This document shows positions 6,321 through 38,633 of a stretch of DNA of 41,377 nucleotides, one piece after another. The stretch is from Planctomycetia bacterium. Lineage in GTDB: Bacteria; Planctomycetota; Planctomycetia; Pirellulales; Thermoguttaceae. The position numbers and the translations under genes were made by a program. The stretch spans positions 1 to 41,377 of the forward strand of contig JAUNBK010000027.1 in the NCBI GenBank assembly GCA_030527105.1, in the 5' to 3' direction. The notes under the pieces were generated by a model, which searched no databases, was not told the origin of the DNA, and saw only the letters and a program-made list of their open reading frames with translations. Within the stretch, counting starts at the first letter, position 1, and each line of letters starts with the position of its first letter.

Positions 6321-6337
6321 TTCCTGCGGACTGATTT

Positions 6338-7669: not shown

Positions 7670-7681
7670 AAAAGTCCTTTT

Positions 7682-8542
7682 TTATGAAAAGATGGCGTTG
7701 TCGATGAGCCGAGTCGCACCTGCGCGCACGGCAAGGAGAACCGCGACCGGGAGCGTCAGCGTTTCGCTCTGCTCCTCGAGCGTCTCGGGATGAACCAACT
7801 TGATGTACTCCACCGTTTGTTGCGGCACCGATTCGATGATACTTTGAATATTTTGTTTAATGGCGGAACAGGATCGCTCGCCTGCGCGAATTTCACGTTC
7901 GGCACCTTGGAGACTTTGGAAGAGCGTCGCTGCGTTTTTTTTCGCGTCTGGCGAAAGGTATTGATTTCTCGAACTGAGCGCCAATCCGCTCGACTCGCGC
8001 ACGATGGGACAAACGACGATTTCGATCGGAACGTCCAAATCTCGCACCATTTGTTCGATAACGCGCGCTTGTTGGAAATCTTTTTGTCCAAAAAAGGCGC
8101 AATCCGCAGACGACAACAAAAAGAGCTTGAGCACAACGGTCGCGACACCGCGAAAGTGCGTGGGTCTCGCGACACCCTCAAGCGGAAGCGCGACGCCACC
8201 CGTGACGACGTACGTGTCGAACCCCTCCGGGTACATCTCCGCTGGCGAGGGAGCAAACACCACAATATTGGCGTTCGAATTGAGGTGAGCAAGTCGCGCT
8301 AAATCCGACTCGAGCGTGCGTGGGTATTTGTCAAAATCCTCGTTTGGCGCAAATTGTGTCGGATTGACAAAGATAGAAACGATTGCACAATCGCACTTCT
8401 TGAGCGCGGCGTCGACGAGCGACAAATGCCCCTCGTGAAGCGCGCCCATGGTGGGGACCAGCCCGATTTTGAGCGCGTTCGTGCGACATTGCGCCGTCCA
8501 TTGCTTTAACTCCCGACGAGAGGAAAAAACTTTTGGCGTCAT
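7682..8542 (-). CDS. panC: Pantothenate synthetase
   Basis: PanC joins pantoate and β-alanine with ATP to make pantothenate, the precursor of coenzyme A. The 286-residue product shows the nucleotidyl-transferase motif VPTMGALHEGHLSLV, VSIFVNPTQFAPNEDFDKYP, FFGQKDFQQ and ALSSRNQYLS. I place the start at ATG 8542, where AAGGGAG lies ten bases upstream and homology begins. The longer open frame to 8596 would overlap the kinase stop. It sits in a leftward operon, kinase - panC - lgt, with gaps of 50 and 12 bases. panB and panD are not in the window. Confidence 0.93.
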   Translation of the reverse strand: MTPKVFSSRRELKQWTAQCRTNALKIGLVPTMGALHEGHLSLVDAALKKCDCAIVSIFVNPTQFAPNEDFDKYPRTLESDLARLAHLNSNANIVVFAPSPAEMYPEGFDTYVVTGGVALPLEGVARPTHFRGVATVVLKLFLLSSADCAFFGQKDFQQARVIEQMVRDLDVPIEIVVCPIVRESSGLALSSRNQYLSPDAKKNAATLFQSLQGAEREIRAGERSCSAIKQNIQSIIESVPQQTVEYIKLVHPETLEEQSETLTLPVAVLLAVRAGATRLIDNAIFS

Positions 8543-8592
8543 GAAAAAAAGCTCCCTTGAAATTATAACCATTTTACGCGAGGTAAAAAATG

Positions 8593-11208: not shown

Positions 11209-11250
11209 ACGCTCGCCTCCCCTTTAGAGCTCTTGCCTTATTCCCGAACT

Positions 11251-11360
11251 TTTATACTCAATACTCGAAAACACACCTCTCACGACACATCGTGACGAGT
11301 TGTGCGCGGCTCCAGCAGCGGACTGCGCAATGGAATTCCACGCAGAGTTGCAGTAATTAT
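11251..11360 (-). repeat. Palindromic repeat family R1, strongly decayed copy 8
   Basis: Retains TATACTC at the left, then GTTGTGCGCGGCTCCAGCAG, CGGACTGCGCAATGGAATTCC, and a CGCAGAGTTGCAGTAATTAT end that corresponds to CGCGAAGTATTATA. The position-by-position order matches other copies, but identity is low. Confidence 0.4.
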
Positions 11361-11486
11361 CGCGAGGAGCGGTCTTTTTTCTCACTCGCGACTCACACTC
11401 CCCCCTATTTTAGCAAAGTCGGGGCGTCCTTGCAAGGGCTACCACCTAAAATTTTGCTTTTTTTCGATAATTCTGTCTAAAACCTC

Positions 11487-11515
11487 TTGAAAGAATCGTG
11501 TAATGATGTTATATT
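11487..11515 (+). promoter_or_regulatory. Sigma70-type promoter of the aldose epimerase gene
   Basis: TTGAAA (11487-11492), 17-bp spacer, TATATT (11510-11515), 45 bases upstream of the start codon. Confidence 0.65.
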
Positions 11516-11559
11516 AGGGAGAGTTTGAGTTTTTTCCAATTAATACAAAAGGAGTTTTT

Positions 11560-12717
11560 ATGAGCAAAATACCTGGTTTCATGATGAGTTTTGCGCTTCT
11601 TGCCGCTCTCTCTGCGAATGCGGAAGAGGTCGTGTCGTCCATCAAAGTCGAGGCGTGGGGAAAACTTCCCACCGGAGAAGAGGTGCAACTATACACTCTC
11701 GCAAACGAAAAAGGAATGTCCGTCTCGATTTCTAACTACGGCGGACTTATCACTTCGCTCATCGTTCCAGACAAAGATGGCAACCCCGGCGACGTCGTTC
11801 TCGGATTCGACACCCTTGAGGGATACCTCGCGGGCTCTCCCTACTTCGGCGCTCTCGTCGGACGATATGGCAACAGAATCGCAAACGGCGAGTTCGTTAT
11901 TGATGGCACGAAGTATAATGTCACCAAAAACGAAAACGGAATCACGAACATCCACGGTGGAAATGTCGGATTCGACAAGAAAATTTGGACCGTCGAGCCG
12001 GGCGAGAATGAGAAAGCGACTTGGCTCAAACTCTCCCTCGTCTCTCCAGATGGCGAAGAGGGTTTCCCCGGCAATCTCAGCGTCTCCGTGAGCTATATCC
12101 TCCCCAGAGAGCACAACTCGCTCATCGTTCTTTACACGGCGCAGACCGACAAAGCAACGCCCATTAATCTCACGCAGCACTCGTATTTCAACCTCAAGGG
12201 CGCGGGGAATGGCGACATTCTCGATCATATCGTCACGATTGATGCGGACTCCATCACCCCGGTCGACAAAACGCTCATCACAACGGGAGAATTGATGCCA
12301 GTCGAAGGGACTGCGTTCGATTTTCGCACCCCCACCGCGATTGGGAAGCGAATTGATGCGGATGAAGAGCAGATCAAAAACGGTGGCGGATACGACCACA
12401 ACTGGGTGTTGAACATGAGCGAGACGGAACCCGTCACGCGCGCGGCAATCGTCACGGAACCCACGACCGGGCGCAGGTTGGAAGTTTTGACGACGGAACC
12501 CGGCGTGCAGTTCTACTGCGGTAATTTCCTCGACGGTACGCTCAAAGGCAAGGGTGGCAAGGTCTATGGCAAACGCTATGGATTCTGCCTCGAGACGCAG
12601 CATTTCCCCAACTCGCCGAACATCGCGGCTTTCCCCAGCACGATTCTTCGACCGGGTCAGGAATATAAAACCGCAACAGTATTTCGTTTTTTGGTTGAGG
12701 GACAAACTGAGAAATAG
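11560..12717 (+). CDS. Exported aldose 1-epimerase (galactose mutarotase)
   Basis: A 385-residue GalM-type protein that interconverts α and β anomers of hexoses. It shows ISNYGGLITSLIVPDKDG, VGRYGNRIANG, the NIHGG substrate loop, the catalytic histidine region NLTQHSYFNLKG, and the catalytic glutamate in GFCLETQHFPNSPN. A hydrophobic leader ending in ALSANAEE indicates export, so it probably acts on sugars released outside the cytoplasm, perhaps alongside the exported glycosidase at 2230. AAAAGGAG precedes ATG 11560. galE lies 7 kb away in a separate unit. Confidence 0.92.
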   Translation: MSKIPGFMMSFALLAALSANAEEVVSSIKVEAWGKLPTGEEVQLYTLANEKGMSVSISNYGGLITSLIVPDKDGNPGDVVLGFDTLEGYLAGSPYFGALVGRYGNRIANGEFVIDGTKYNVTKNENGITNIHGGNVGFDKKIWTVEPGENEKATWLKLSLVSPDGEEGFPGNLSVSVSYILPREHNSLIVLYTAQTDKATPINLTQHSYFNLKGAGNGDILDHIVTIDADSITPVDKTLITTGELMPVEGTAFDFRTPTAIGKRIDADEEQIKNGGGYDHNWVLNMSETEPVTRAAIVTEPTTGRRLEVLTTEPGVQFYCGNFLDGTLKGKGGKVYGKRYGFCLETQHFPNSPNIAAFPSTILRPGQEYKTATVFRFLVEGQTEK

Positions 12718-12792
12718 TGTGTCGCTTTGATTTTTCTCGCATCTTCCCCCTCTCGCTGCGCGTGCGTGTGTGAGTGGGGGAATTTCCTCTTT

Positions 12793-15306
12793 ATGATTCG
12801 TCCTTATTATGCTAATTTATTAGATATGCTAAATTGTGCCCGTTGTCACTCTGGTGTTTCTTCTTCTCGTGCGACGGGAGGGCGCCGTCGTTTGGACCGT
12901 GTTTTCGCGAGTCTGGCGCTTGGCGCGCTCGTCTGGGCACTCGTGAATTGTCTCGCCCCTGCCGACGCTTTTGCGCAACGGCGTTCCAGCGCGCGACAGC
13001 AGCCCGACATCACGCCGAAGATGGTGCAAAACGCGATTTCTGGCGGCGTCGATTATCTCAAATCGCTTCAAAATCGCAGGGGAAATTGGAACGAAGAGGA
13101 AATTCACGTCGGTGGCATCTCATCGTTATGCACGCTCGCTCTTCTGAGCGCTGGCGAGACGCCCGACGATCCGCACGTTGCGAGGGCGCTTGAGTATCTT
13201 CGCTCCGTCGATCCCACCTCGGGACCGGTCGAAAGCACGTACGTTGCCGCGCTCCAAACCATGGTGTTCTGCATGGCGGAGCCGAAACGCGATGCGGGTC
13301 TCATTCGGCGCAACGTCCTTTGGCTCCAAAACACGCAAAAGACCGAGATCAAAGTCGGCGCGTGGGGCTATCCCTACGGCAACGGAGACCCTTCGAACTC
13401 GCAATTCGCCCTCTTGGCGCTCTACGAGGCGGATCGGCTTGGGCTGAGTATCGACCCCAAAGTTTGGCGAAACGCGAGCGTTTATTGGAGCAACACCCAA
13501 AATATTGATGGCTCGTGGACGTACAACTACCTCCCGCCCTCGGTTGGGCAGCAGGCGCCCGGCTCGGGGTCCATGACGTGCGCGGGAATCGTTTCACTCC
13601 TCATTGCGGGGGAGAAGTCGGAACTTGCGGACGCACTCATCCGCAACGGGGAATTTCTCCCCTGCCAGCGACAAAATACCGAAATTTCTCGCCGCCTCAA
13701 CCACGCTCAAAAGTGGATGGCGAAGCATTTTAGCGTCTCGCGCAACCCCGGCAACAAAGATTGGGTACTCTATTATCTCTACGGCTTGGAGAGAATGGGA
13801 CGTATGACGGAGCAGCGCTTCATTGGCGGGCACGATTGGTATCGTGAGGGCGTTGCGGAACTTTTGCGGCTATCCAAAACTGCCGAGCGGCGCGACCGTG
13901 TTCTCGTGTATTGGAAGGGGGCGTCGTCGAGCGAAATGATGGAGCCGATCGCAACGTCGCTCGCGCTCCTTTTCCTCTCGAAGGGGAGATATCCCGTCCT
14001 TCTCACGAAGGTGCAATTCACACAGGAGACGGAGGATTGGAACAATCATCGTCACGACATCCACAATCTTGCGCGCTACACGGAGGATGCGTGGAAGAAA
14101 TACGTCACGACGCAAAATGTGGATTTGGAGACAGCGACGACGGAAGATTTGCTCCTCTCGCCCGTCCTTTTCTTCTCGGGCACGCAGAGTCCTCTCCCGA
14201 AGGATGCGGCGCAGCGCAAAGCGTTTGGCAAGAAGCTGCGCGATTATGTGGATCGAGGCGGATTTATCCTGGCGGAGGCGGCGGCGCCTGGCGGATCCTT
14301 CGAGCGAGGGTTTCGCGAGTTGCTCCGAGAAATCTTCCCCGAAAAAGAGCATCGTTTGTATCCAATGCCGCCCGAACACCCCATCTGGCGCGCGGAGAAA
14401 ACGATTCAACCGCGCTTCATGCGTCCGATTTATTGCATGGATTATGGGTGTCGCACGTGTGTGGTCTTTGTGACTTCGGATCCGAAAAAGCCGCGCCCCT
14501 CGCTCTCTTGTTTGTGGGAGTTGGCGCCAGAAGCTCGACCCTCCGCGCCGCATAACGAGATCGTGAAAGACGAAATTCGCGCGGGATTAAGCCTCGGACT
14601 CAACATTCTCGCTTACGCCACCGACCGAACTCTCAAGACGAAAGAGGAGAGTTTTCTCGCGCAGCAAGCCGAAACGCCTGCCGACTCGCCCGTCCAACGT
14701 GGACGCCTCGCGATTGCCAACCTCCAGCACGGTGGCGGGTGCGAAGCGGCTCCAAAAGCGTTGCGGAACCTGCTTCTCAAAGCCTCCGACGCCCTCCACA
14801 CCAAGTCGGGCGTCCTTGCCGAGACCGTGTCGATTGCGTCCGACAGGATTTTCGACTTCCCCATTCTCTTCATGCAGGGGCGTTATGATTTTCGACTCAC
14901 GCGTGCGGAGAGGGTGCAGCTGCGCGCGTATTTGGATCGTGGCGGGCTGCTTTTCGTGAATTCGATTTGCGCCTCGCCCGCGTTCGACGCCGCATTTCGT
15001 CGCGAGATGGCGGAGATTTGCCCCGACGCGTCGCTTCGAGCCATTCCTCTCGACGATCCGCTCTACACGAACGCGCTGGGGGGATTCGATTTGCGCGGAA
15101 TTCGAACCCGTCGAGCAGAGAGCGGCACGACGGCGCAACCCATCCAACTCGAGGGCGCGCTCATCAACGACCGCTGGGGCGTCATTTATTCCTCGTGGGA
15201 CCTCAGCTGCGCCTTGGAGGACTTCAACTCGATGAATTGTCGAGGATACTCCACCGATGATGCCGCCAAAATCGGCGTCAACGTGATACTGTACGCGTTT
15301 TACTAA
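12793..15306 (+). CDS. Exported protein with prenyltransferase-like repeats and DUF4159 domains
   Basis: An 837-residue protein. After a long N-terminal tail, a signal segment (VFASLALGALVWALVN…ADAFAQ) leads to α/α-barrel-like repeats (about 75-370). Examples are ISGGVDYLKSLQNRRGNW, FALLALYEADRLG and SMTCAGIVSLL. The C-terminal half has two flavodoxin-like segments of DUF4159 type, each with a YVDRGGFILAEA or YLDRGGLLFVNS motif. This architecture is common in planctomycetes; its function is unknown. ATG 12793 is uncertain: ATG 12826 and the frame start 12727 are alternatives, none with a strong ribosome site. The stop is followed immediately by R1 copy 7. Confidence 0.8.
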   Translation: MIRPYYANLLDMLNCARCHSGVSSSRATGGRRRLDRVFASLALGALVWALVNCLAPADAFAQRRSSARQQPDITPKMVQNAISGGVDYLKSLQNRRGNWNEEEIHVGGISSLCTLALLSAGETPDDPHVARALEYLRSVDPTSGPVESTYVAALQTMVFCMAEPKRDAGLIRRNVLWLQNTQKTEIKVGAWGYPYGNGDPSNSQFALLALYEADRLGLSIDPKVWRNASVYWSNTQNIDGSWTYNYLPPSVGQQAPGSGSMTCAGIVSLLIAGEKSELADALIRNGEFLPCQRQNTEISRRLNHAQKWMAKHFSVSRNPGNKDWVLYYLYGLERMGRMTEQRFIGGHDWYREGVAELLRLSKTAERRDRVLVYWKGASSSEMMEPIATSLALLFLSKGRYPVLLTKVQFTQETEDWNNHRHDIHNLARYTEDAWKKYVTTQNVDLETATTEDLLLSPVLFFSGTQSPLPKDAAQRKAFGKKLRDYVDRGGFILAEAAAPGGSFERGFRELLREIFPEKEHRLYPMPPEHPIWRAEKTIQPRFMRPIYCMDYGCRTCVVFVTSDPKKPRPSLSCLWELAPEARPSAPHNEIVKDEIRAGLSLGLNILAYATDRTLKTKEESFLAQQAETPADSPVQRGRLAIANLQHGGGCEAAPKALRNLLLKASDALHTKSGVLAETVSIASDRIFDFPILFMQGRYDFRLTRAERVQLRAYLDRGGLLFVNSICASPAFDAAFRREMAEICPDASLRAIPLDDPLYTNALGGFDLRGIRTRRAESGTTAQPIQLEGALINDRWGVIYSSWDLSCALEDFNSMNCRGYSTDDAAKIGVNVILYAFY

Positions 15307-27978: not shown

Positions 27979-29727
27979 TTACACAAAATTGGAATGGATT
28001 CTCCGAAGTAAGGACTTTAGGGAACTGAACGTACAAAATTTAGCTTTCGGCGACGCCAAATACGCACTGCTCACGAAGTATTCGACTTTTTGGAAACGCG
28101 TTTCAAGAATACTCACGAAATTGCACATATTGCAATCCAGAAGAAACTGGCGAACGAGACGACTTTGGGCTGTCGTCCACTGGTTAAATTCTCTCGAGTT
28201 TTTGAAAAGAATCTCCGTGTCAAGGTCTAAACACACCTTCTCGTTCGGAGAATCTGGACTTGTTGTCATTTTGCGTGGCGATTCAATGCGTCGCTCGCTG
28301 TTGGAGTCAGCGATAGCATCTCGTGAAACATCGAGAATCCCCCTATTTTCAAGGTGCGATAAGTAAATATCTGCTTTTGTCAAAACGACGCAAATCGGAT
28401 ACTTGAATCGCACATCCGACCGGCACCCCAACATGCGCTCCAACATAACGCAAAGTCTGCTTGCGGTAATTTCGGGGTGCTCTTGAGCCGTCCGAAAATC
28501 AGAAGGGATCCTTGGGGTCGGGAGGGGATTTTTCTTCATAAAAGACGTTTCGCAAAAAGGGTCGACGAAAAAGAGGATGCCGTCCAAATCTTCGCAATAG
28601 GAACAGGAGGGTCTATTCGGACTGTCACTAAATTCGTCCCCAGCCGAGTCGTAGAGATAACAAAGCGACGATGAGAGACCGTGGGGGGCGAGAATAGGAA
28701 CCGCCGCGGGAATCCGACACTGCGGAGTCGATTGGCAAGATACCATTCTGTCCATTGCACTCGAAGCATTGCGCATTGTTTTTTCTTGGTCGGCATCAGC
28801 AAATTGAATCCCACCCACGCGCGCCCCAGAACCGAACGTGAGCGCTCTTACAAGATAGGAAGTTTTTCCGCAGCCGTGGGAACCTGCGAGCATTATTTTT
28901 TTTACTGGATACTTGCCAATTCCCCGAATATTGAGGTTCCTCCCACATTCTGGGCAGGCTTTCGTGTAACGCCCGCGCCCCCAGAGATTGAGAGTGCTCA
29001 AATACGTTTGGCAAGATGGACACGGGACGCGAAAAATACCAGCAGAAGACGGCCTCAGTCGTTCAATACGCGTGCCGCAATTCGGGCAAGAATAGATCGG
29101 TCGCACACGCTTTCCACAGTCGGCATGGTGGCAAAGGAAAGTTCGATTTCCGAAGTGCGCGACCCACTCGAAAAAGAGGAGCGTCAGGAGCGAAACGAGC
29201 GAGACCGAAGCAATTCCAAGAGCGAGTCCGCCAGGCACCCAACCCCAATAATAAATTTGAATATCACTTGCCATTTGTGAAATATTCGCACTGAATAGAG
29301 AAAACGTTTCAAAAGTATCGACCGCTGCTTTGTCAAAAAATCCCCAAATATGAGAGCAAAGAGTGCTAACAATGCACATCCAAATGCCAAAAGCGATCAG
29401 ACTTCCGCAGCCCACGTCGGTATTCATTTGGCTGCTGTTGGAATTGCGTTCATTGTTAGAGATAGCGAAACAGCCGACCACCAGCCCTAAAACGATAATT
29501 AAAACACAAATGATCCAGTCGAGAATGTTTAGAATGCCCGCAACGAGAGCACCAATTGCATAAACGCAAGTCGAGCACATGGGGAAAATCACGAGCAAAC
29601 CGAGTGTAAGCATCCAACAGCAGATGAGGAACTTTGGATGCAACTGCCAAATGGGGGTAGGATTCAACGATCTTGTGGAATTTGACCTGAATGACGAGGA
29701 ACTCACACTGCTCTCCCAAAAATTCAA
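27979..29727 (-). CDS. Multi-pass membrane zinc-ribbon GTPase (double-GTPase type)
   Basis: A 582-residue protein. Four hydrophobic segments (about 34-52, 55-88, 105-128, 160-190) precede cysteine-rich zinc ribbons (about 199-262: CHHADCGKR…CPNCG, CPSC…CPECGR), and then a GTPase domain. That domain has P-loop GSHGCGKTS (282-290), a switch-like DSAGDEF (360-366), and LTKAD as the NKxD-type base motif. This matches the double-GTPase proteins paired with GAP1 in predicted conflict systems. The start is TTG 29727, overlapping the upstream stop as TTGA, which implies tight coupling. It is last in the seven-gene operon. It may transmit a signal at the membrane; the output is unknown. Confidence 0.75.
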   Translation of the reverse strand: MNFWESSVSSSSFRSNSTRSLNPTPIWQLHPKFLICCWMLTLGLLVIFPMCSTCVYAIGALVAGILNILDWIICVLIIVLGLVVGCFAISNNERNSNSSQMNTDVGCGSLIAFGIWMCIVSTLCSHIWGFFDKAAVDTFETFSLFSANISQMASDIQIYYWGWVPGGLALGIASVSLVSLLTLLFFEWVAHFGNRTFLCHHADCGKRVRPIYSCPNCGTRIERLRPSSAGIFRVPCPSCQTYLSTLNLWGRGRYTKACPECGRNLNIRGIGKYPVKKIMLAGSHGCGKTSYLVRALTFGSGARVGGIQFADADQEKTMRNASSAMDRMVSCQSTPQCRIPAAVPILAPHGLSSSLCYLYDSAGDEFSDSPNRPSCSYCEDLDGILFFVDPFCETSFMKKNPLPTPRIPSDFRTAQEHPEITASRLCVMLERMLGCRSDVRFKYPICVVLTKADIYLSHLENRGILDVSRDAIADSNSERRIESPRKMTTSPDSPNEKVCLDLDTEILFKNSREFNQWTTAQSRLVRQFLLDCNMCNFVSILETRFQKVEYFVSSAYLASPKAKFCTFSSLKSLLRRIHSNFV

Positions 29728-31091
29728 CGCAACGCATTAAAAATCAAAAAAGGAAGAAAAAAGAGCGCCAGTAGGCAACCTTTAGATTTCTGTTCCATCG
29801 GCGCGGAAGCGTAAGCCGCATTTTCCTTGTGCGCTGCTGTCGAGGATTCCGCTGCCGCCGGTTCCTTTGTAGATTCCTCTGGAGGTGCGGGTGTCTCAAA
29901 CCCTTGGATGATGAGTCGTTGAAAGTCCGGCATATTTCGAAGCTGAGCAATGGTGTGTTCATGAAGGATTCGATTGAGGAGAAGGTCTCGCTCCTCATTT
30001 CTGAGAACGTCGAAGCAGGTGAGTTGCTCTGAGAGCGAAAAGCGCCCAGACTGTGTGAGGGCAGTTGCCGCTACTTTGTTGATTTCAGGGACGGTGCAAG
30101 CGGTGCGGAGCTGCTTCAAATTCAAATTTGTCTGATGAAAACGAAATATCCAGAAAAATTGGAGCCACTCGACACTCTGTTCATAGCGATCCGGAACAGT
30201 TTTGAGAAAATCGAAGAAGAAATTCAATTTTCCTTCGCAAAAACGACAGATCAACTCGTCCCAGAACGGATACTGCGCCCTAGGCTCCTCCTCACTGCTC
30301 CCGCCGTCCTTCCGCCAATAGAACCTAAAATCTTGTCTTTGTCTGAGCGTTTTGAACACAAGTTCGTCTTGATCGGAATAATCTCCTGTTCCAGCAAAAG
30401 CTACGACCTCTTGGGAGATGGTCACGGAGGGGCTTTCGTAGGTGGAAAAGGTGAGGGAATTCCAATATTTTTGAGGGAAACAGCGCGTCAAGCCCCACAG
30501 AGCGAATGCCGACCGTTCGGGTTCGCAAACGAAGACAATTTTTTGGTCAGGTGTTTTTGAGAACCACGCTTTGAGAAGAAACCTGAAGATATCGATATTC
30601 TCAGGGTCACGATTGAGAAAATCGACAAACGATTGGTCATTGATGATTCCTTTTTGAAAGCTGCTGTCCTCCAATTCAGGCAAAATTTCAGGAAAATCAT
30701 TCTCGTCCTTTATGACCCAAGAGGGACTTCCCCAAAGTGAAAGCACATCGTATGCCGTCCATTTCTCGGGGAGCGAAGTGAGTACATGCGCGAAGTAGTT
30801 TCCCTCACGACTCGTTTCTTGGTCGGGGAGAGCGTCGCAAATATGCACAACAACCCGACCAACGGGTGAATTGCAGAGCTTCAGCGAAACGGGCGCATTT
30901 TGGAGAATCGCCTCACGAGACATCTTCTTTTCGAGAAACGGCTGAATCGAAATAGAATAGAAGCAAAGTTTTTTAATCTGCTCCGCCTCTGTACCGCTAA
31001 TACCTTTAGAAATGGCGCGAGGGCGGTCGCCGCCGGCACCACGTACAACACTTTTTCCCGCGCAACAAAATGTATAATAAATTTGCTTCAT
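29724..31091 (-). CDS. GAP1-like GTPase-associated protein with C-terminal membrane anchor
   Basis: A 455-residue protein. The first 130 residues fit the GAP1-N2 domain: MKQIYYTFCCAGKSV, a GISG turn, a mid FYSI strand, VGRVVVHICDALPDQETSRE and GNYFAHVLTSLP. The middle (about 140-390) is helical and may correspond to GAP1-M. The end has an Ala/Glu/Pro linker and a hydrophobic tail (CLLALFFLPFLIFNALR), which looks like a tail anchor. Family knowledge links GAP1 to paired GTPases in conflict systems; here GTPase genes sit on both sides. It overlaps both neighbours by four bases (ATGA and TTGA). Confidence 0.72.
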   Translation of the reverse strand: MKQIYYTFCCAGKSVVRGAGGDRPRAISKGISGTEAEQIKKLCFYSISIQPFLEKKMSREAILQNAPVSLKLCNSPVGRVVVHICDALPDQETSREGNYFAHVLTSLPEKWTAYDVLSLWGSPSWVIKDENDFPEILPELEDSSFQKGIINDQSFVDFLNRDPENIDIFRFLLKAWFSKTPDQKIVFVCEPERSAFALWGLTRCFPQKYWNSLTFSTYESPSVTISQEVVAFAGTGDYSDQDELVFKTLRQRQDFRFYWRKDGGSSEEEPRAQYPFWDELICRFCEGKLNFFFDFLKTVPDRYEQSVEWLQFFWIFRFHQTNLNLKQLRTACTVPEINKVAATALTQSGRFSLSEQLTCFDVLRNEERDLLLNRILHEHTIAQLRNMPDFQRLIIQGFETPAPPEESTKEPAAAESSTAAHKENAAYASAPMEQKSKGCLLALFFLPFLIFNALR

Positions 31092-32347
31092 GATTTCATA
31101 TCCTCTTTTGTTTGCAAATGTCCAAGTTTATTAAGCAGCCAGAAGAGCGAGTCCGCGACATTAATCGGCTCAATGGATTCAATCGGCTGATTTTCGACCG
31201 GAGTGCGCCCAAGCGACGCCATTCCAAAGAATTGAATATTTTGAAAATTTGCCTCAACATCGCTAATGAGTCGCGGAGCGTTCTCCAGCAGAAAATGACG
31301 AAGGTGCCCCGAAACCTCTTGCGCAGACTCTGCGTCAAACCCATCTTCGTGTTTGTGATCGTGAAAGACGGAAGGCTCCAACCCCTCCACGTTTCGGAGG
31401 AGATCGAATTTCGAAATAACGACCGCCAAGGGAGTTTTTATTTTCCGCTCAGGGAGAGCGCCTTGTCGTTCAAACGCCCTCCGAATTTGCGCGACCACAA
31501 CATCATCCGAAACCCCCTCCTTGACGAGGGTGGATTCGTCAAGCTCTTGTATGATTTTCCCTCGAATCCTTTGATAGGAAAGCGGGTCGAATAGCGCGAT
31601 AATCCCGGACGCTCGCGCAAGGTAGCGTGCATAAAGCGCTATCGCCTCGGGGCTGTCCATATCCTCGCCAGCAGCGTCGAAAAGCACCAAATCAACCGGT
31701 CGTATATGCGAAAAAGGATGAAGAATTCGTTGTTTCCAATTGAATTTCGTCAGATTCAATCGATAAATCAATGGAATCCGGATTTCTCTATTCTGAACGG
31801 CAGAGCGCGTCGCGGGAACTGCGATCGGATTCCGCGCAGATTTAAGATACTGTCCATAACGGTATCCATAAAGCGAGGAGGAATTAACCGTCGAGAGTGT
31901 TGAAATCGAAAACGTTTCGAGCGAAAGCAAATTCAATCCCACCTCCGCCGAATAGCGATTGCCCAAAGCATCAATCAAAACCCCGAAAAAATTGCTTTTC
32001 CCTGACGCTCGATACCCCGTGACCGCGATGATGTCCGTGCTTTTCCCATTATTTGTCATTTGGCTCGGCAAATCCATGTGGCAATGAGGGCAAATTCGCC
32101 GGACGATACGCCTTCCTCGCTCACGAACCTTCGGAAAATAAAAATAACGAATCAAGTTAAGAAAACCCGTAGGTGGCGGTTCTACTGGTCGCATCATCAC
32201 GGCTTGGTCAAGATCCAAAAATTTTTGAACAACCTCGTCGTTTTCATATTCGTCGCTCGAAATCACACGAAGCGGAGCGTGCCCCGGTCGAAAATACTCG
32301 AAGCAGAAGGGGCACAATAATCTTTTCCATGGTCGTATGAATGGCAT
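31088..32347 (-). CDS. Zinc-ribbon GTPase of the double-GTPase type, soluble partner
   Basis: A 419-residue protein. An N-terminal split zinc ribbon (CPFC near 12-15, CPHC near 86-89) leads to a GTPase domain with P-loop GYRASGKS (111-118), DAAGED (224-229) and VISKFDLL as the base-specificity motif. It has no membrane segment, in contrast to the GTPase at 27979. The two form a plausible pair of the kind found with GAP1. Its stop overlaps the GAP1-like start by four bases. Target and trigger are unknown. Confidence 0.75.
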   Translation of the reverse strand: MPFIRPWKRLLCPFCFEYFRPGHAPLRVISSDEYENDEVVQKFLDLDQAVMMRPVEPPPTGFLNLIRYFYFPKVRERGRRIVRRICPHCHMDLPSQMTNNGKSTDIIAVTGYRASGKSNFFGVLIDALGNRYSAEVGLNLLSLETFSISTLSTVNSSSLYGYRYGQYLKSARNPIAVPATRSAVQNREIRIPLIYRLNLTKFNWKQRILHPFSHIRPVDLVLFDAAGEDMDSPEAIALYARYLARASGIIALFDPLSYQRIRGKIIQELDESTLVKEGVSDDVVVAQIRRAFERQGALPERKIKTPLAVVISKFDLLRNVEGLEPSVFHDHKHEDGFDAESAQEVSGHLRHFLLENAPRLISDVEANFQNIQFFGMASLGRTPVENQPIESIEPINVADSLFWLLNKLGHLQTKEDMKS

Positions 32348-32373
32348 GATGTCTACACTCCATTGAATTGGGT

Positions 32374-33741
32374 TTATCGTTCTTTACATATCTGTTTTCG
32401 ACTTTGCGGATCGGTTCCCAATGAGAAGAAAACGCGGTTCCCCACGCGCACTTCGCTAAATATCGAAACGAATATGCAAGCGTCAAAATCGATCGGAATA
32501 CGAGCCGGATGATTGATGGAGAGTCGTTGCTCCGTGCGCTGAATTCCCTGCCCCACATCCTCGGCAGAAGCGGCAAAACGGTCCTCACGAACGACAATTC
32601 GGATTTTCCTCACCTTCACGTCCGCAGACCAAGAAAGAGCCACGACAAGTTCCCCATTCTCTGCGTCGAAATAGGCGTCAAACATCGTCGCGTCGTCTGG
32701 TCCGCCCAACGCAATGATTTCTCCACACTGGAACCATTGCTTAAACGGCTTGATCGGGAGAAGATGAATCGTTTCATAACGAGAATCGTCCGGGAGTTTG
32801 CGCCACGAGGCGGAACCTGCGCGTTGATCCACATCTAAGCGAAACGTTGGGTGCCTCCCCACATCGTCTCCAAGAGTCTGCAATTCGGACTCCCAGATGA
32901 ATCGTCCCTGCCATTCTTTCGCCTTGGAGGAATCCACAACGAGAAACCTCAAAGGTTGCCCCGTATCTGGAGTCCAAAGGAGTTTCACCGCAGAGGCGTC
33001 TTGCTCACGACGGACTTGCGGCGTTTCTCCCGATTTTGCCAAAGGTTCCCATGTATCGCAATAAGGGAGGCTTTCCAACAGCTCGACAGGGAGGTTTTGT
33101 GCCGCAATTTCTCGGAAGATCGCGCCACACGGCTCCGTCCCCAAAAGCATGAGGTGGGGCAGAGAATCGAACAAACGGATTGTCCTCGCGAGAGCCTCTT
33201 TCTTGAAAGACGCCTCATTCTCGGAGGGCTTTTTTTCCACCACCGGAGCGATCGGCAAAAGTTTCCACCCGATTGTTTCTCCGTATTTGACAATGGCGAG
33301 AAGATCGGGACTCCATCTGGAGAAAGTCACTCCGCAGTCGGCAAGCTCGGACGCTGCGGAACAGACAAAGGAAAGGAAATCGGTCTCCTTATCTTTCGGC
33401 ACGGTATCTTCTGGGTCGTTCTTATCGAACAAACGATCGGCAGCTTCAAAAACAGCAAAAGCAATATTCTGTTTTTGCCCCGTCCTCAGGCATTGAAGCG
33501 CGTCGGAGCAATTTTTTGTCGACTGCTGCCATTTTTCCCAGGTTTTCGCAATGAGCGCATTCTCCGGTGCCACGAGAAACCAGATGTCACGACAAGATTC
33601 CTCTGCGGAGCCAAAACCATCGGAATCAAGCGACGAGCGGAGTATTCCCGAAAAAATGCGAACGTTTTGATAGGCACCAAGTGCAGCAAGCCTCTCCACC
33701 GTTGTAGAGGAATCAAGTGGCAACGTTTTGGAATTGTGCAT
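32374..33741 (-). CDS. Operon protein of unknown function
   Basis: I do not recognise this 455-residue protein. The N-terminal half is helical with a strand-helix order (DIWFLVAPENALIAKTWEKW, NIAFAVFEAADRLFD). The C-terminal part (about 260-455) is β-rich with aromatic and charged strands (ELVVALSWSADVKVRKIRIV). It has no signal peptide, membrane helix or P-loop. The phrase FEAADRLFD resembles FEFADRLYS of the AAA protein upstream, so its N-terminal half may be a relative of that protein's degenerate N-terminal domain. Its start overlaps the AAA stop by one base (TAATG). It lies 26 bases before the soluble GTPase. Confidence 0.65.
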   Translation of the reverse strand: MHNSKTLPLDSSTTVERLAALGAYQNVRIFSGILRSSLDSDGFGSAEESCRDIWFLVAPENALIAKTWEKWQQSTKNCSDALQCLRTGQKQNIAFAVFEAADRLFDKNDPEDTVPKDKETDFLSFVCSAASELADCGVTFSRWSPDLLAIVKYGETIGWKLLPIAPVVEKKPSENEASFKKEALARTIRLFDSLPHLMLLGTEPCGAIFREIAAQNLPVELLESLPYCDTWEPLAKSGETPQVRREQDASAVKLLWTPDTGQPLRFLVVDSSKAKEWQGRFIWESELQTLGDDVGRHPTFRLDVDQRAGSASWRKLPDDSRYETIHLLPIKPFKQWFQCGEIIALGGPDDATMFDAYFDAENGELVVALSWSADVKVRKIRIVVREDRFAASAEDVGQGIQRTEQRLSINHPARIPIDFDACIFVSIFSEVRVGNRVFFSLGTDPQSRKQICKER

Positions 33742-35651
33742 TAATTGAGTCCTCGGACGGTGAGTTTTCCATCATTGATTCCAAGAAACAGCGTGCTGCC
33801 TTCCGAAGGCGCGTGGTCGAAAATCCACCCTGCGAGAGGCTGTTCGATTTTTTCTTCCATCCGTACGCGAATGCGCCGACCTCCATAAAGCAGGTTGTCT
33901 CCTTTCTTCATCAGTTCCATGATCCACCGACACAAAGCAGATTCCTCCGCCTTCGGCGTCTGTGTCCCATCCGAAGTTTCATACGCGAGCGTATATTGCT
34001 TCGCAAGGGCGGAACGCTCGAGGTTGCGCATGAATTTGGCGAAAATTCCTCGAATGTGTGTGGGACGCAAAATGTCGAAAACAAGAATGTTGTTGCCAAG
34101 ACGATTGAATATCTCTGGACGACCAAGTTTCGAGACGAAATGGTTCTGAACCTCCGAAAAGTAGTGGTCCCAAATCTGCTGGTAGCTTGGCGCGGAGTCC
34201 GAGATTTGATTCAAATTTGTCTTGTTGGAGAGCGTCTCAGAGCCGATATTGCTCGTAAAAATGATGATCGACTGCGAGAGATAAACGGTCGAACCTTTCC
34301 CATCGGTGAGACGACCATCCTCGAGGATTTGAAGGAATTTGTCCATAACTTTTCCGTTTGCCTTCTCGATTTCGTCGAAGAGTAGGATACTAAACGGATT
34401 TTCTCGAACATAATTCGTGAGTTGCCCACCCTCCTCGTATCCGACGTATCCGGGTGGCGATCCGGTCAGTTTTTCTGCCGCATGGCTTTCGGAATATTCG
34501 CTCATGTCGAAACGTCGCATTCGATTTTCGTCTCCGAAGATCAATTCTGCCAACGATTTTGCAAGTTCCGTCTTTCCGACGCCAGTAGGTCCCACGAAAA
34601 AGAAGATTCCCTTCGGCTTTCCCCCTGCGTAGCTGGACGACTGCGACATAGAAACGCCAACGTTCGCGAGTTTGAGCATATTAACGATACTTCGCACCGC
34701 CTCATCTTGACCAATGACGCGCCGAGTGATTTCGTCAAATGCGCAGCGAATTTTCTCCTGATTGAAACTTTCCCACGGATCTTCCGTGTCGCCGTAGCGA
34801 TAATAAAAGATAAGCTCCTTGATTTCTCGCGCGTTGCGAGCAAGTCGACTCTCGTTTTGGGCCGTTGCGGAAATCGAAATCATATCGGAAACCATGAGAC
34901 CATCTGTATTTTCCACGAACGCACGCACAATTTTTTCTTTCTCGCGTTCGTCGCACTGCACCTCTGGCGCAATGAAACGATTCATGAATTGGCGAAAAAA
35001 CTCCTCACGTTCGCTATTCTCCGGGCACGGGATTCGCACAGGTTCAATGGCTGGGTGGTCTTGATAAAACCAGGCAGGAACGGACTGAAGCGATGACGCG
35101 ATGAAGATCATTGCGTTTTGCCGACCTCCCAATTCCTGCGGCAAGCGAATCGGCGGCTTGGAGGCATTCTCTAGAGCATGATCCCGAGCTTGCACAAGAT
35201 TTCGAATCAAAACCTCAGGATTGATCCGACGGGTTTTGGGGAGGGTCTTCTGGAGGAGTACGAGCAATTTCCGTTCCTGCTCATTCTGCTGCTGCGGAGA
35301 GGAGTAGAGTCTGTCCGCAAATTCGAAAACTGCCGCAACGGGAGATTCTTCCTGCTCAGCCAAGATATTGCAGATTTCTGCCGTGCAATTCAGAGTGTCT
35401 AGGCTGTCTAGACTTTTGGGGAGGCGAAAATCCGTCGGTTCGACGTGGGCGTTTTCCGCAATGTTGAAGTGAACGATGCCAGAGTAGCCGCAGTCTAAAA
35501 AGTAATGATCCAACGTTTTTTCAAGTCTGTCGTATCTACTTCTACTTCGATATCGATCGTGAATATTCCCATAGAGAAGGACGTGCTTTCCTCGCCGAAG
35601 CTGCTTGTCCATCTGCGTTATCCAGTTGTTTGGGGAGGTAGGATTGGTCAT
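33741..35651 (-). CDS. ClpB/ClpA-class AAA+ unfoldase with degenerate N-terminal half
   Basis: A 636-residue protein. The N-terminal ~300 residues (GKHVLLYGNIHDRY…AVFEFADRLYS…NAMIFIASSL) have the order of an ATPase domain but no P-loop. The C-terminal half is a Clp-class AAA+ module: VIGQDEAV, Walker A GPTGVGKT (354-361), FDMSEYSESHA, pore loop GYVGYEEGG (401-409), Walker B LLFDEIE (423-429), sensor IIFTSNIGSE and GRPEIFNRLGNNILVF. No peptidase-binding loop is evident, so it resembles a disaggregase or remodelling enzyme more than a protease subunit. It follows the coiled-coil gene by 161 bases, most of it an R1 repeat. Confidence 0.85.
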   Translation of the reverse strand: MTNPTSPNNWITQMDKQLRRGKHVLLYGNIHDRYRSRSRYDRLEKTLDHYFLDCGYSGIVHFNIAENAHVEPTDFRLPKSLDSLDTLNCTAEICNILAEQEESPVAAVFEFADRLYSSPQQQNEQERKLLVLLQKTLPKTRRINPEVLIRNLVQARDHALENASKPPIRLPQELGGRQNAMIFIASSLQSVPAWFYQDHPAIEPVRIPCPENSEREEFFRQFMNRFIAPEVQCDEREKEKIVRAFVENTDGLMVSDMISISATAQNESRLARNAREIKELIFYYRYGDTEDPWESFNQEKIRCAFDEITRRVIGQDEAVRSIVNMLKLANVGVSMSQSSSYAGGKPKGIFFFVGPTGVGKTELAKSLAELIFGDENRMRRFDMSEYSESHAAEKLTGSPPGYVGYEEGGQLTNYVRENPFSILLFDEIEKANGKVMDKFLQILEDGRLTDGKGSTVYLSQSIIIFTSNIGSETLSNKTNLNQISDSAPSYQQIWDHYFSEVQNHFVSKLGRPEIFNRLGNNILVFDILRPTHIRGIFAKFMRNLERSALAKQYTLAYETSDGTQTPKAEESALCRWIMELMKKGDNLLYGGRRIRVRMEEKIEQPLAGWIFDHAPSEGSTLFLGINDGKLTVRGLN

Positions 35652-35716
35652 GCCTTTTGCTCCTCACTTTCTGCTGTGTTTCTCGAATGCGGATTTGTGC
35701 CGATAACGCCGAGGCA

Positions 35717-35820
35717 TTATTCTATGTAAAAATTTCGGTTTTCTCGAAGTGTCAGGTTCCAAGGTGCACAAGTTCCAACGGCGGACGGAACCGGAAATTT
35801 CAACGCGAAGTATTATAAAT
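35717..35820 (-). repeat. Palindromic repeat family R1 (MITE-like), copy 5, inside the operon
   Basis: The right half is intact (GTTCCAACGGCGGACGGAAC, AAATTTCAACGCGAAGTATT). The left half has diverged but keeps an AAAAATTTCGG motif. It fills most of the gap between the coiled-coil and AAA+ genes. On the minus strand its outer TATA edge supplies the TAA stop of the coiled-coil gene. Confidence 0.75.
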
Positions 35821-37492
35821 AGCGATGTTTCGTCTCGTGAGCTTCCGCACTCCAAGTCTCTTCCGTGACGGGTCCCTCTGAATTCGGAAGGTCCTTCGCT
35901 CCTTTGCGAATACGATCGGGATTTCCCTGCCACGTGGGCGCGCCCGCAACGATACCAAACGGACGGAGTTTCGTGGTGACTTCCTGCACGATTCTCTTGC
36001 CATCGTCATTCTCGACAATCGGCTGCCCCTGCTCCCTCGTTTTCTTGATCGGGTAGCCATCAAAACGATAATTCACGGGCGCGCTCTCCGAGTGCGGAAT
36101 CGTGATCGTGATGCTTTCTTTTCCGCTTCCCGACCTTGATTGGGGCACGAGTCTCAAAATCGTTTCGGACTCATTCGGACCAGACACCGCAGGTTCGTTT
36201 TGCACGGAACGGATCGTGAAACCCATCTCCGGCAAAACGGATCGCAGCGAGCGCACAATATAGTTTCGGCGCTCAAACTCGCGCTGTTTTATTCCTGCCG
36301 AGGTGAGCATTGTTTCAAACTGGTACTTCCAACTCTCGATATCATTTTGAATCGTTTCGAAATTGCCATTGTCGACTTGCTGGCTCATTTTTTCGAGCGC
36401 GGAATGAAGATACTCCAAGTCGGAGGCGCTCCATCGTTTCACGATTTCCGTTGAGGCAAGCGTCAGCATCTGCTCCAACTCCTCGATCTGCGGGAGAAAC
36501 TCCGCACGAATTTTCTCATTTTGCGCCTGTCGCTCATTTTGAATCTGGAGAGATTCCTGAATTTTCACCAAAAATGGCTCGAACAATTTTTGAAACTCTG
36601 CCAACTCCCTCTCCAATGCGGGAATTTGATGGGCGGCTCTTTGGTTGCGGATGAAATGATCCATTCTTTCCAGTTGCGCAACGGTCGTCGACTCCCACGT
36701 CTTTGCCACCTCTCGCGAAACCGGCAGCGAGTTCCAGAGCGCGTCCAAGAGCAGAGTCCCCCTCGAGTAAGCTGCCTCGCTTCGAATTTGCCCCGATATC
36801 TGAATCTGCCAAGCAGACCACTGCCGGCAAACGGTAGAGAAATTTTGAAGCGTCGCATCATTTAATCGCGCACGCAGCGTCTCAAGCTGCCGTAAGAATT
36901 CCGCGCTCTTTTCGCCAGCATTCGAACGAATGAAATCCTCCGTCTGTTGAATCTGAGTCCGAATCTCTGCGCGCTGCGTGTCCAATTGTTTCTTAAGCGT
37001 CTTGAGATTCTCGAGGCGCTTCTGTTTTTTACGCAGCTCCTGCGTCGCGCGCACAAGCTGTTCCAACGTCATTTCGGGAGCCTTTTGCAAAATGGCACCC
37101 ACCTCCTGCGCGAACTCGTCCAATCCCTCGTCTCGAAACGCCACCTCTCGCACGAACGACGCGATCTGACGTTCAACCTGCTGCGCCGACTCTGAAGTCT
37201 CTTTCCGCTGGCGGAAGAGTCTCTCTGCCATCATGCGTTCCCGAATTGCCTGCTGTTCCTGCTGGTACTCTTGATATTTTCGGACGCCATCTGCGGCAGC
37301 CTGCCCCGTCGCGACAAGGGCTTCTCCCGCGAGCCTGGTGCCTTTGATAGCAACCTTCCCACCATAGAAAGCGAGCACTCCGGTCACAGCGGCTGCCGCC
37401 GTCGCCACCGCCAGCAGACCAAGAACTGCGGAACCCGCTAATTCGGCACCGGTATCCGCCACCGCAACGACTGTATCTTTGCTCCCGCTCAT
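35813..37492 (-). CDS. Membrane-associated coiled-coil protein
   Basis: A 559-residue protein. A Gly/Ala-rich hydrophobic N-terminus (AELAGSAVLGLLAVATAAAA, about 14-45) looks like one or two membrane segments. A long Gln/Glu/Arg-rich helical region (about 55-400) with heptad-like spacing follows (QELRKKQKRLENLKTLKKQL). A small β domain (about 410-500: GFTIRSVQ…ITITIPHSES…YRFDGYP) and a polar tail end it. I know no named family. In an operon with an unfoldase and GTPases it may be a scaffold or filament former. It starts 14 bases after the radical SAM stop. Confidence 0.72.
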   Translation of the reverse strand: MSGSKDTVVAVADTGAELAGSAVLGLLAVATAAAAVTGVLAFYGGKVAIKGTRLAGEALVATGQAAADGVRKYQEYQQEQQAIRERMMAERLFRQRKETSESAQQVERQIASFVREVAFRDEGLDEFAQEVGAILQKAPEMTLEQLVRATQELRKKQKRLENLKTLKKQLDTQRAEIRTQIQQTEDFIRSNAGEKSAEFLRQLETLRARLNDATLQNFSTVCRQWSAWQIQISGQIRSEAAYSRGTLLLDALWNSLPVSREVAKTWESTTVAQLERMDHFIRNQRAAHQIPALERELAEFQKLFEPFLVKIQESLQIQNERQAQNEKIRAEFLPQIEELEQMLTLASTEIVKRWSASDLEYLHSALEKMSQQVDNGNFETIQNDIESWKYQFETMLTSAGIKQREFERRNYIVRSLRSVLPEMGFTIRSVQNEPAVSGPNESETILRLVPQSRSGSGKESITITIPHSESAPVNYRFDGYPIKKTREQGQPIVENDDGKRIVQEVTTKLRPFGIVAGAPTWQGNPDRIRKGAKDLPNSEGPVTEETWSAEAHETKHRYL

Positions 37493-37506
37493 TCGTCAAT
37501 TCCTTT

Positions 37507-38172
37507 CTAACTGATCACAATCCCGTGAGCACGCATTTTCTCTCGATACTCATCCCGAAATCCCGGTCGCGGAGGGATGCCCGTCCACTGCGGAACACCA
37601 CGCTCATCAAACTCGAACTCCACCCCTTGCCCAGGTTCCGAGAGACGATTCTCGTACTCCCGATATCGATCCGTCAAAAAATGGACACACTGATTCCGCG
37701 ACCCTCTCCAAAGTAGGTCGGCATGAAGTTCCTGCACATAGGGACCATCGACAAGAACGTCGAGTGCCTCAAGGAGTCGCTTCTGTGCTGGAGTCCCAAA
37801 CTCCTGAAGCCGAGAGAGTCGGTCGCCCGTGAAACAAAAAAACGAGAAATCTTCCCGACTCTTTCGGATCATCTCGACCAAAAGAACCAGCCCCTCAGCC
37901 TGTTCCATAGGCTCGCCACCACTAATCGTCAGCCCTTCCAAATCTGGCGAGTACAAAAATCGATCCGCCAGATCCACAACGTCCATCTCAAAACCGAGAG
38001 AAAAATCATGCGTTTCTGGAGCCGTACAGCCGGGGCAATTTCTCGCGCAACCCTGCACCCAAACGACACCGCGTACACCGGGTCCCAGCACTTCGCTGCG
38101 AAGTACATACCGAGCGAGGCGCAATCTCGCGACAAGGCTCCCACTTGTTTGAAACACTGCGTGAGTGGTCAT
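37507..38172 (-). CDS. NrdG-like radical SAM protein
   Basis: A 221-residue protein. The 4Fe-4S cysteine motif CARNCPGC (Cys42, 46, 49) follows GVVWVQG. The SAM-binding GGEPM is at 85-89, and DVLVDGPYVQ is typical of the NrdG activase-like group. Classical NrdG activates the anaerobic ribonucleotide reductase NrdD, but no nrdD is present here. The gene is first in an operon of GTPase, GAP1 and AAA+ proteins, so its substrate is probably an operon partner. ATG 38172 has no clear ribosome site. A TTG at about residue 17 is an alternative. Confidence 0.82.
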   Translation of the reverse strand: MTTHAVFQTSGSLVARLRLARYVLRSEVLGPGVRGVVWVQGCARNCPGCTAPETHDFSLGFEMDVVDLADRFLYSPDLEGLTISGGEPMEQAEGLVLLVEMIRKSREDFSFFCFTGDRLSRLQEFGTPAQKRLLEALDVLVDGPYVQELHADLLWRGSRNQCVHFLTDRYREYENRLSEPGQGVEFEFDERGVPQWTGIPPRPGFRDEYREKMRAHGIVIS

Positions 38173-38550: not shown

Positions 38551-38633
38551 CGGAAGACACGGGACTCGAACCCGCAACCCCGGTCAGGGGCATCTCATTT
38601 CCAATGAGACCGCTAGCCATTCGCTTATCTTCC
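38551..38633 (-). tRNA. tRNA-Ser (GGA)
   Basis: An 83-nt class II tRNA. Acceptor GGAAGAT pairs with GTCTTCC (one T-G), and the anticodon loop TTGGAAA carries anticodon GGA (38600-38602). The long variable arm includes CCCC…GGGG, and the T arm is GCGGGTTCGAGTCCCGT. The discriminator is G and no CCA is encoded. A leftward promoter lies just upstream. Confidence 0.93.

Follow-up and report, generated by a model that had tools for sequence, protein, structure and literature searches.

The 41,377-nucleotide stretch of DNA analysed here (the window) is contig JAUNBK010000027.1 from a Planctomycetia bacterium of the family Thermoguttaceae. Seven co-directional genes on its minus strand, running from position 38172 down to 27979, form an operon that combines a GAP1-N2 gene and GTPase genes with genes for a radical S-adenosylmethionine (SAM) enzyme, a coiled-coil protein and an AAA+ protein (Table 1). 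In transcription order, the products are the radical SAM enzyme, the coiled-coil protein, the AAA+ protein, the product of gene 4, a soluble GTPase, the GAP1 protein and a membrane GTPase; the intergenic distances are +14, +161, -1 (TAATG), +26, -4 (ATGA) and -4 (TTGA) bases. The seven reading frames and their limits had been proposed in a first-pass annotation made from the sequence alone, together with four junctions that overlap or span no more than 14 bases, and both were recovered (the junctions being those of +14, -1, -4 and -4). The TTG start of gene 1 is the mechanical start of the open reading frame (ORF) and is uncertain. What is new is the coupling of GAP1-N2/DO-GTPase genes with a radical SAM, coiled-coil and AAA+ module; no recognisable description of GAP1 or DO-GTPases together with radical SAM and ClpB-like genes was found in the open-licence PubMed Central literature, subscription papers and supplements lying outside this search.

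Table 1. Features of the window (aa, amino acids)
Feature	Position	Strand	Product
Gene 7, first in operon	37507-38172	minus	Radical SAM enzyme, NrdG-like, 221 aa
Gene 6	35813-37492	minus	Coiled-coil protein, 559 aa
Gene 5	33741-35651	minus	AAA+ protein, 636 aa
Gene 4	32374-33741	minus	Fast-evolving protein, proposed sensor/adaptor, 455 aa
Gene 3	31088-32347	minus	Soluble zinc-ribbon GTPase, DO-GTPase2 group, 419 aa
Gene 2	29724-31091	minus	GAP1-N2 protein with hydrophobic C-terminal tail, 455 aa
Gene 1, last in operon	27979-29727	minus	Membrane GTPase with zinc ribbons, 582 aa
tRNA-Ser (GGA)	38551-38633	minus	
Side observation	8593-11208	minus	Protein with Ser/Thr kinase-like domain, 871 aa

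The G+C content is even (50.2% in the operon, 51.6% in the window). The tRNA-Ser gene shares the operon's strand and lies a short distance upstream. A genomic island at this tRNA gene was considered and found to be unsupported, given the even G+C content and the lack of a tRNA gene in four related loci (L082-L085, described below). A promoter and terminator scan gave matches all over the region and was not used.

Recurrence of the operon and of its halves in related genomes

Gene 3, coding for the soluble GTPase, was sought in 60 related genomes, that of the window included. Matches at E 0.001 were obtained in 13 and at E<1e-20 in nine, and the neighbourhoods of all eight strong matches other than the window's own were examined. 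All seven genes were present, in the same order, in locus L082 (another genus of the family) and in locus L083 (a third genus), gene 4 being marginal in the latter: against profiles made without L083 its E value was 7e-4, while those of genes 1, 2, 3 and 6 were 8e-45, 4e-37, 1e-111 and 4e-33, respectively. Locus L084, from the window's genus, held six of the seven genes, gene 1 being missing. The other loci were less complete. Gene 4, gene 3, the GAP1 gene, a short GTPase gene and the radical SAM gene were found in L085, the stretch lacking coiled-coil and AAA genes; L086 contained gene 4, gene 3 and the GAP1 gene, L088 gene 3 and the GAP1 gene, L087 gene 3 only (the contig end is near), and L089 two GTPase genes without the module.

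None of six genes flanking the operon in the window was found in the eight gene 3 loci. Comparison of all flanking ORFs of at least 100 aa (124 in the window, 38 in L082, 22 in L083 and 25 in L084) gave a single cross-match, between the window and L084, with 21% identity; the ORFs concerned are separated from their operons by ∼7 kb (window) and <1 kb (L084). Since the ordered set recurs in other genera, the gene set is more than a chance association. The first-pass annotation had named recurrence of the set with variable flanks as support for its proposal, which is what L082, L083 and L084 display, and homologues of the radical SAM, coiled-coil and AAA+ genes do co-occur elsewhere with GAP1 and GTPase genes. 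The proteins differ widely in conservation. Identities to the window in L082, L083 and L084 were, respectively, 62, 43 and 56% for the AAA+ protein, 53, 50 and 60% for the radical SAM enzyme and 54, 40 and 43% for the gene 3 product, falling to 35, 32 (over 233 columns) and 36% for GAP1, 35, 22 and 31% for the coiled-coil protein, 26, 23 and 28% for the gene 4 product, and 28 and 26% for the gene 1 product (absent from L084).

When the N-terminal half of the AAA+ protein was searched for in the same 60 genomes, 17 matched at E 0.001 and nine at E<1e-40. Gene 3 and the AAA protein both had strong matches in seven genomes, gene 3 alone in two (G259, G278), the AAA protein alone in two (G167, G260) and neither in 49 (Fisher p 3e-6, with thresholds picked after the lists had been seen, relatedness uncorrected and five of the seven genomes belonging to one genus). 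In genomes G254 and G255 the coiled-coil and AAA genes lie together, in stretches that lack a radical SAM gene (L094, L096), and in G256 the AAA gene has no recognisable coiled-coil neighbour (L095), the radical SAM gene staying with the GAP1 gene (L085). The two halves of the operon are thus separable yet travel together. The contig of G258 that carries the GAP1 operon also has a second module, of the type accompanied by a helicase gene, ∼9 kb away; AAA_15 and N6-methylase genes separate the two. These GAP1-type and helicase-type modules (L084 and L097; G258:C16, about 43-72 kb) form a cluster resembling a defence island.

Proteins encoded by the operon

Gene 2 matched the Pfam family PF20013 (GAP1-N2) at 44.2 bits, above the cut-off of 24; its GAP1-M match reached 16.0 bits, below the cut-off of 24. 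A hydropathy analysis located a hydrophobic segment at its C-terminus (residues 436-454), in keeping with the tail anchor first noted, and the tail is also present in the GAP1 proteins of L083 and L084. Gene 3 contains a P-loop, a Walker B motif, SKFD and two CxxC pairs. It scored 18.7 bits against PF19993 (DO-GTPase2), under the cut-off of 27, which its orthologues in L082 (27.6 bits) and L083 (38.2 bits) pass; P0007, a protein 55% identical to the gene 3 product, carries PF19993, as do many of its 125 protein database matches. Its closest named relatives belong to Thermoguttaceae bacteria and other Planctomycetota. Gene 1 scored 19.4 bits against PF19993, again below 27; it has a P-loop and TKAD, its zinc ribbons match below cut-off, and hydropathy indicates four N-terminal hydrophobic segments and none at the C-terminus. 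The motifs for GTP binding are intact in both GTPases of the window. The division into one membrane and one soluble GTPase made in the first-pass annotation thus held, as did its GAP1-N2 assignment, while the GAP1-M and both DO-GTPase2 matches remained under their cut-offs.

On these sequence matches the operon is assigned to a predicted group, the GAP1-N2/DO-GTPase systems of Kaur, Burroughs, Iyer and Aravind (2020; PMC7159879), for which thresholding and effector deployment were predicted. As in the GAP1-N2-type systems of that paper, the GAP1-N2 gene comes after a zinc-ribbon GTPase gene, the GAP1 protein has a tail and the linked genes are variable. The second GTPase of the known systems has four N-terminal membrane helices and one at the C-terminus; gene 1, with its four N-terminal hydrophobic segments, may correspond to it. 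The GAP1-N2 section of the paper, however, gives tubulin, HSP70/GrpE and kinase/PP2C as its main themes, and names neither a radical SAM gene nor an Hsp100-like motor, both of which are present in the operon.

Gene 7 matched Fer4_12 at 115.5 bits (cut-off 22), and its motifs CxxxCxxC and GGEP are retained in L082, L083 and L084. It resembles NrdG and other glycyl-radical activases in being a small radical SAM protein with these two motifs. Unlike NrdG, it falls below the equivalog cut-off of TIGR02491 (100.6 bits, against 126.1) and has AAA+ and coiled-coil genes as its recurrent neighbours. No class III ribonucleotide reductase or NrdD-like partner was found among the seven operon proteins, the rest of the genome not having been searched. 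Of the NrdG-like radical SAM enzyme originally described, the radical SAM part therefore stands, on its family match and motifs, and the NrdG identity does not reach its cut-off.

The AAA+ protein (gene 5) matched AAA_2 at 169.6 bits. Its best NCBIfam match was to the second half of ClpB, at 249.9 bits, compared with a ClpB cut-off of 1232.1. Motif scans and alignment revealed Walker A and B motifs, a GYVGY pore loop, an arginine finger and sensor 2 in the C-terminal half, all features of the second AAA+ ring of ClpB/Hsp100. In contrast to those proteins, the N-terminal half lacks a P-loop and the score of the whole protein is far below the ClpB cut-off; the AAA+ proteins of the window, L082, L083 and L084 each have a single P-loop. 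As judged from its sequence, gene 5 encodes a relative of the second ring of ClpB and not ClpB itself. The ClpB-class description of the first-pass annotation can be kept for the pore loop and the C-terminal half only. As a control, two ClpB loci of one genome were inspected; neither had a radical SAM gene within ∼20 kb, and one (L091) gave a weak match to a coiled-coil profile (E 3e-5).

The coiled-coil protein (gene 6) starts with MSGSK, has a hydrophobic segment rich in Gly and Ala at residues 22-40, and ends in an alpha/beta domain with a DGY motif; its AlphaFold model has a mean predicted local distance difference test (pLDDT) score of 75.0. The glycine of DGY is retained in 11 of 11 aligned coiled-coil sequences. 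The idea that gene 7 oxidises this glycine to a glycyl radical was set aside, as the coiled-coil proteins of helicase-type loci have FDNYKG-, FDNYRG- and FHQYKG-like stretches. A protein database search with gene 6 found one relative among ∼8000 candidates scored, although genomes hold more.

Gene 4 matched no family in Pfam, PADLOC, PHROGs or PDB, and no relative was found among ∼8000 protein database candidates scored, although, here too, genomes hold more. The first-pass annotation had counted it in the set and left it uncharacterised. Orthologues were detected in L082 and L084, with weaker ones in L085 and L086 and a marginal one in L083. The C-terminal part of the gene 4 product matched the C-terminus of a 506-aa protein in locus L098 (E 4e-8 with a four-sequence profile, E 1e-3 when L083 was omitted from it). 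The gene for this protein sits directly after an AAA gene, and its N-terminal part is related to kinases (22.5 bits, against a Pfam cut-off of 31.7). HRD is the usual catalytic motif of kinases; HGGVCP occupies its position here. Gene 4 itself matched kinase C-lobes weakly (E 0.0015, probability 17%), a reading somewhat strengthened by the kinase fusion of L098. No Pfam FN3 match was obtained for gene 4 or its counterparts in L082-L085, and the gene 4 profile matched nothing in PDB. From these comparisons we infer that gene 4 may correspond to the fibronectin type III repeat component known from GAP1-N2 systems, preceded by a decayed kinase, and may act as a sensor. Profile comparisons with vWA, AAA and FHA proteins gave nothing, and the structure predicted for gene 4 alone was useless (pLDDT 34.9). 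Locus L098 (G260:C492, 3-6396) comprises the AAA gene, the degenerate-kinase/gene-4-like fusion, an NYN-domain protein and a 226-aa protein that has no Pfam match and looks, by eye, ubiquitin-like and E2-like.

The radical SAM, coiled-coil and AAA+ module in other phyla

When the AAA+ protein was searched by tblastn against plasmids, 2263 records were returned, 15 of which covered at least 80% of the query; a radical SAM gene was present in the same cluster in all five plasmid matches examined, among the 20 matches listed. Scanning genomes with the N-terminal half of the AAA+ protein alone identified 18 loci in Cyanobacteriota, Bacillota, Pseudomonadota, Armatimonadota and a UBP7 bacterium, so that, with the window's phylum, the module is present in six groups. 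A radical SAM gene was found in 15 of the 18 loci, a coiled-coil gene in 15 and both in 13. The coiled-coil profiles were partly seeded from the loci matched (L005, L016, L021, L006, L007 and L074 by eye, others by a three-sequence profile), and for the seeding loci these counts hold by construction. The radical SAM gene was missing from L013 (the contig starts just upstream), L014 (the gene lies on another contig, L076, of the same genome) and L028 (a weak fragment), and the coiled-coil gene from L018, L025 and L028. A GAP1 profile built from the window, L082, L083 and L084 gave no match when applied to L052, L054-L057 and the module loci from other phyla. Among 246 genomes spread over the window's phylum, GAP1-N2 was detected in 19 and the AAA family in 21, six of them strongly; the five strong AAA loci other than the window's all had radical SAM and coiled-coil genes. 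The coupling of these genes to GTPases, as first proposed, is supported for the operon; the three genes themselves are not peculiar to it, the module existing in its own right with other partners in several phyla.

The partners vary with lineage. They were labelled with small local profiles, some of them built from the labelled loci; Pfam supported the labels for only part of the proteins. By these labels, FHA and phosphatase genes were present in eight of nine Bacillota loci and a kinase gene in six (the proteins called phosphatases take that name from the annotation of L005, and the L021 member had no Pfam match). Seven loci without GTPases from cyanobacteria, Armatimonadota and UBP7 (L011, L012, L013, L015, L017, L019, L020) had kinase (6/7), vWA (6/7) and FHA (5/7) genes. 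Three gammaproteobacterial plasmids (L006, L007, L074) carried a helicase and a PIN gene, the helicase of L006, a Moellerella plasmid, matching MkoA. Within the window's phylum, a helicase was found in four loci, one of them also matching the PIN profile, and two further helicase loci emerged from the neighbourhoods of the 60 relatives.

DO-GTPases scoring above a Pfam cut-off were found in the module cluster of two cyanobacteria, and near a looser version of it in a third. GTPase-centred systems were reported to be nearly completely absent from this phylum (Kaur et al., PMC7159879). Geminocystis NIES-3708 has three: one at 45.8 bits for DO-GTPase2, one at 46.0 for DO-GTPase1 (36.5 for DO-GTPase2) and one below cut-off; no more than 5 kb separates its cluster from two genes, one annotated as an anti-phage dCTP deaminase and the other a dGTP triphosphohydrolase. 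In the metagenome-assembled genome containing L014 and L076, DO-GTPases occur on both contigs (the one scanned scored 44.4 bits), and by analogy with the Geminocystis order the two contigs probably represent one operon. In Calothrix PCC 6303, three DO-GTPases (56.8 and 53.9 bits for the two scanned) are encoded on the strand opposite to the radical SAM gene and ∼7 kb away from it. The AAA protein there is a different, tandem one, the coiled-coil protein was recognised only by eye, and an Hsp70 gene is also present. In trees of the AAA and radical SAM proteins (32 rows each), the window grouped with kinase/vWA loci in one clade, within which the two cyanobacterial GTPase loci took up other positions; the GTPase label therefore needs at least two changes. 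Several partner labels used in the AAA tree were provisional. The radical SAM tree has the revised ones, under which L012 and other loci with a single partner still count as kinase/vWA.

A search of the seven proteins against PADLOC-DB 2.0.0 gave partial matches only, to the C-terminal half of the AAA+ protein and to the coiled-coil stretch of gene 6 (LmuB). The module adjoins a helicase like that of Mokosh (MkoA) in the Moellerella plasmid and, by local profile, in other loci, and gene 5 shares a ClpB-like domain with DolB. Unlike the module, the PADLOC models for these systems cover only the helicase or the C-terminal part of the AAA protein, and none was found for gene 7. Plasmid clusters of Paenibacillus (L073, which has DUF1257) and Paenarthrobacter (L075) of the DUF1257/DUF2997/AAA/radical SAM type also join a related radical SAM gene to an AAA gene and a small DUF2997 protein, but the AAA gene of the Paenibacillus cluster belongs to another family (IetA-like). 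By eye only, the C-terminus of the helicase-type coiled-coil proteins resembles DUF2997.

Module coiled-coil proteins of different families often start with MSG (14 of 26 open frames), frequently as MSGPK or MSGSPK, the middles of the proteins being unalike; loci of this type include L003, L005, L011, L014, L016, L019, L021-L023 and L026. The shared N-terminus may be a recognition or modification site.

Possible function and alternative explanations

The operon may be an anti-invader system in which a membrane GTPase/GAP1 switch triggers AAA+ remodelling of a radical-modified coiled-coil effector, a proposal on which our confidence is evenly balanced. It builds, by inference, on genes, motifs and an ordered recurrence read from sequence and on the comparison with module loci in which no GAP1 was detected. 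Gene 4 and the membrane GTPase would sense infection or membrane damage, and a threshold would be set by GTP turnover of the two GTPases, which the tail-anchored GAP1 would hold. The radical SAM enzyme would prime the coiled-coil protein, on which the AAA+ protein would pull, or which it would reassemble, probably without proteolysis. The hydrophobic N-terminus of the coiled-coil protein would then enter the host membrane, stopping the growth of the infected cell. A motor and a radical enzyme as output stage would thus be added to the thresholding and effector deployment predicted by Kaur et al.

The distribution of the hydrophobic segment bears on the last step. It is present on the coiled-coil protein in all four loci with a GAP1 gene alongside (window, L082, L083, L084), as well as, apart from these loci, on the coiled-coil protein P0002, and in none of 26 coiled-coil open frames from loci without a detected GAP1 (threshold 1.6; two frames came near it, at 1.57 and 1.55, and one is a fragment). 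This pattern fits, without proving, a membrane-directed effector.

Several observations weigh against the proposal. The detached coiled-coil proteins of L094 and L096 lack the segment although their genomes have a GAP1 gene elsewhere. The GTPase/GAP1 and AAA genes lie on different contigs in G254, G255 and G256, all three from the window's genus; linkage in cis is therefore not required. In the sample of 246 genomes, which includes one other member of the family (G167) and not L082-L084, GAP1-N2 and AAA genes share a locus only in the window's genome. Around the operon, the genes suggest housekeeping functions (by eye Lnt-, ArfB- and LeuD-like, together with the tRNA-Ser) rather than a defence island. 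Both window GTPases stay under the cut-off of their hidden Markov model, the gene 3 product of L084 has GKG where the P-loop requires GK[ST], gene 1 is absent from L084, and the GAP1 protein of L082 has no hydrophobic tail by the same hydropathy test. Finally, the DGY glycine is not retained in the helicase-type coiled-coil proteins, so that it points to no substrate site for the radical enzyme.

A broader and more tentative proposal, which we would not rate above possible, is that bacterial immune systems of a class not named before share one engine, made up of the radical SAM, coiled-coil and AAA+ proteins, to which each lineage adds its own nucleoside triphosphate-driven trigger: DO-GTPases with or without GAP1, kinase/FHA/vWA proteins, or a Mokosh-like helicase. 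The radical enzyme would arm the coiled-coil protein and the motor would release it, in the GAP1 version into the membrane. If so, bacteria would operate a single protein-remodelling engine with GTPase, kinase or helicase triggers that can replace one another, GAP1-N2 systems would gain a testable output (a motor and its coiled-coil substrate) and radical chemistry would join GTPase-gated immunity. The predicted defence role of DO-GTPase/GAP1 systems would also become directly testable, because versions of the engine are found on plasmids of named cyanobacterial and gammaproteobacterial strains.

Alternatively, the operon might encode a housekeeping complex for envelope stress or the cell surface, with the GTPases and GAP1 reporting envelope damage, the motor maintaining a coiled-coil scaffold and no role against invaders. 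Such a complex would account for the hydrophobic segments in genes 1, 2 and 6 and for the housekeeping-like neighbours in the window, and one part of PMC11237479 places a DO-GTPase gene in PspF operons and mentions membrane-related stress. It sits badly with the patchy distribution within one genus (two of eight genomes, the window's own included in the eight, have no match to both gene 3 and the AAA protein), the unshared flanks, the fast divergence of genes 1, 2, 4 and 6, and the company that the module keeps elsewhere, an adjacent MkoA-like helicase in one case and an anti-phage deaminase nearby in another; we consider it unlikely, while giving it some weight.

That two unrelated operons, a GAP1/DO-GTPase cluster and a radical SAM/coiled-coil/AAA cluster, merely abut is distinctly improbable. 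The halves do occur apart in relatives (L086 and L088, compared with L094 and L096), and the module is found without a detected GAP1 across phyla. Against this, the same order is kept in three more genomes with unshared flanks, the module is separately paired with DO-GTPases in cyanobacteria, the presence of the two halves is correlated in relatives, and genes 5 and 4 overlap by one base.

A cluster for ribosomally synthesized and post-translationally modified peptides (RiPPs), in which gene 7 would mature a small peptide whose regulation or export fell to the other genes, is very improbable: a radical SAM gene modifying a peptide effector was suggested for FtsH ternary systems in one part of Kaur et al. 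(PMC7159879), and the 161-base gap between genes 6 and 5 contains short ORFs, but the corresponding junction of L082 spans only ∼25 bases (the starts in L083 and L084 being uncertain), and none of the seven genes matches an export or RiPP peptidase family above cut-off. Short ORFs occur in both gaps of the operon; a small peptide substrate was rejected, the L082 junction leaving no room for one in the first.

The window also encodes, away from the operon, the kinase-like protein listed in Table 1 (local profile E 1.6e-27). A second GAP1-N2 system, in which the radical SAM/AAA module was not matched in the stretch examined, lies on another contig of the window's genome (L058; G000:C42:1500-15164, at 4911-13665). 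It comprises a GTPase-like protein of 826 aa (local profile E 9e-6), a kinase-like protein of 776 aa and a GAP1-N2 protein of 1298 aa that reaches the contig end.

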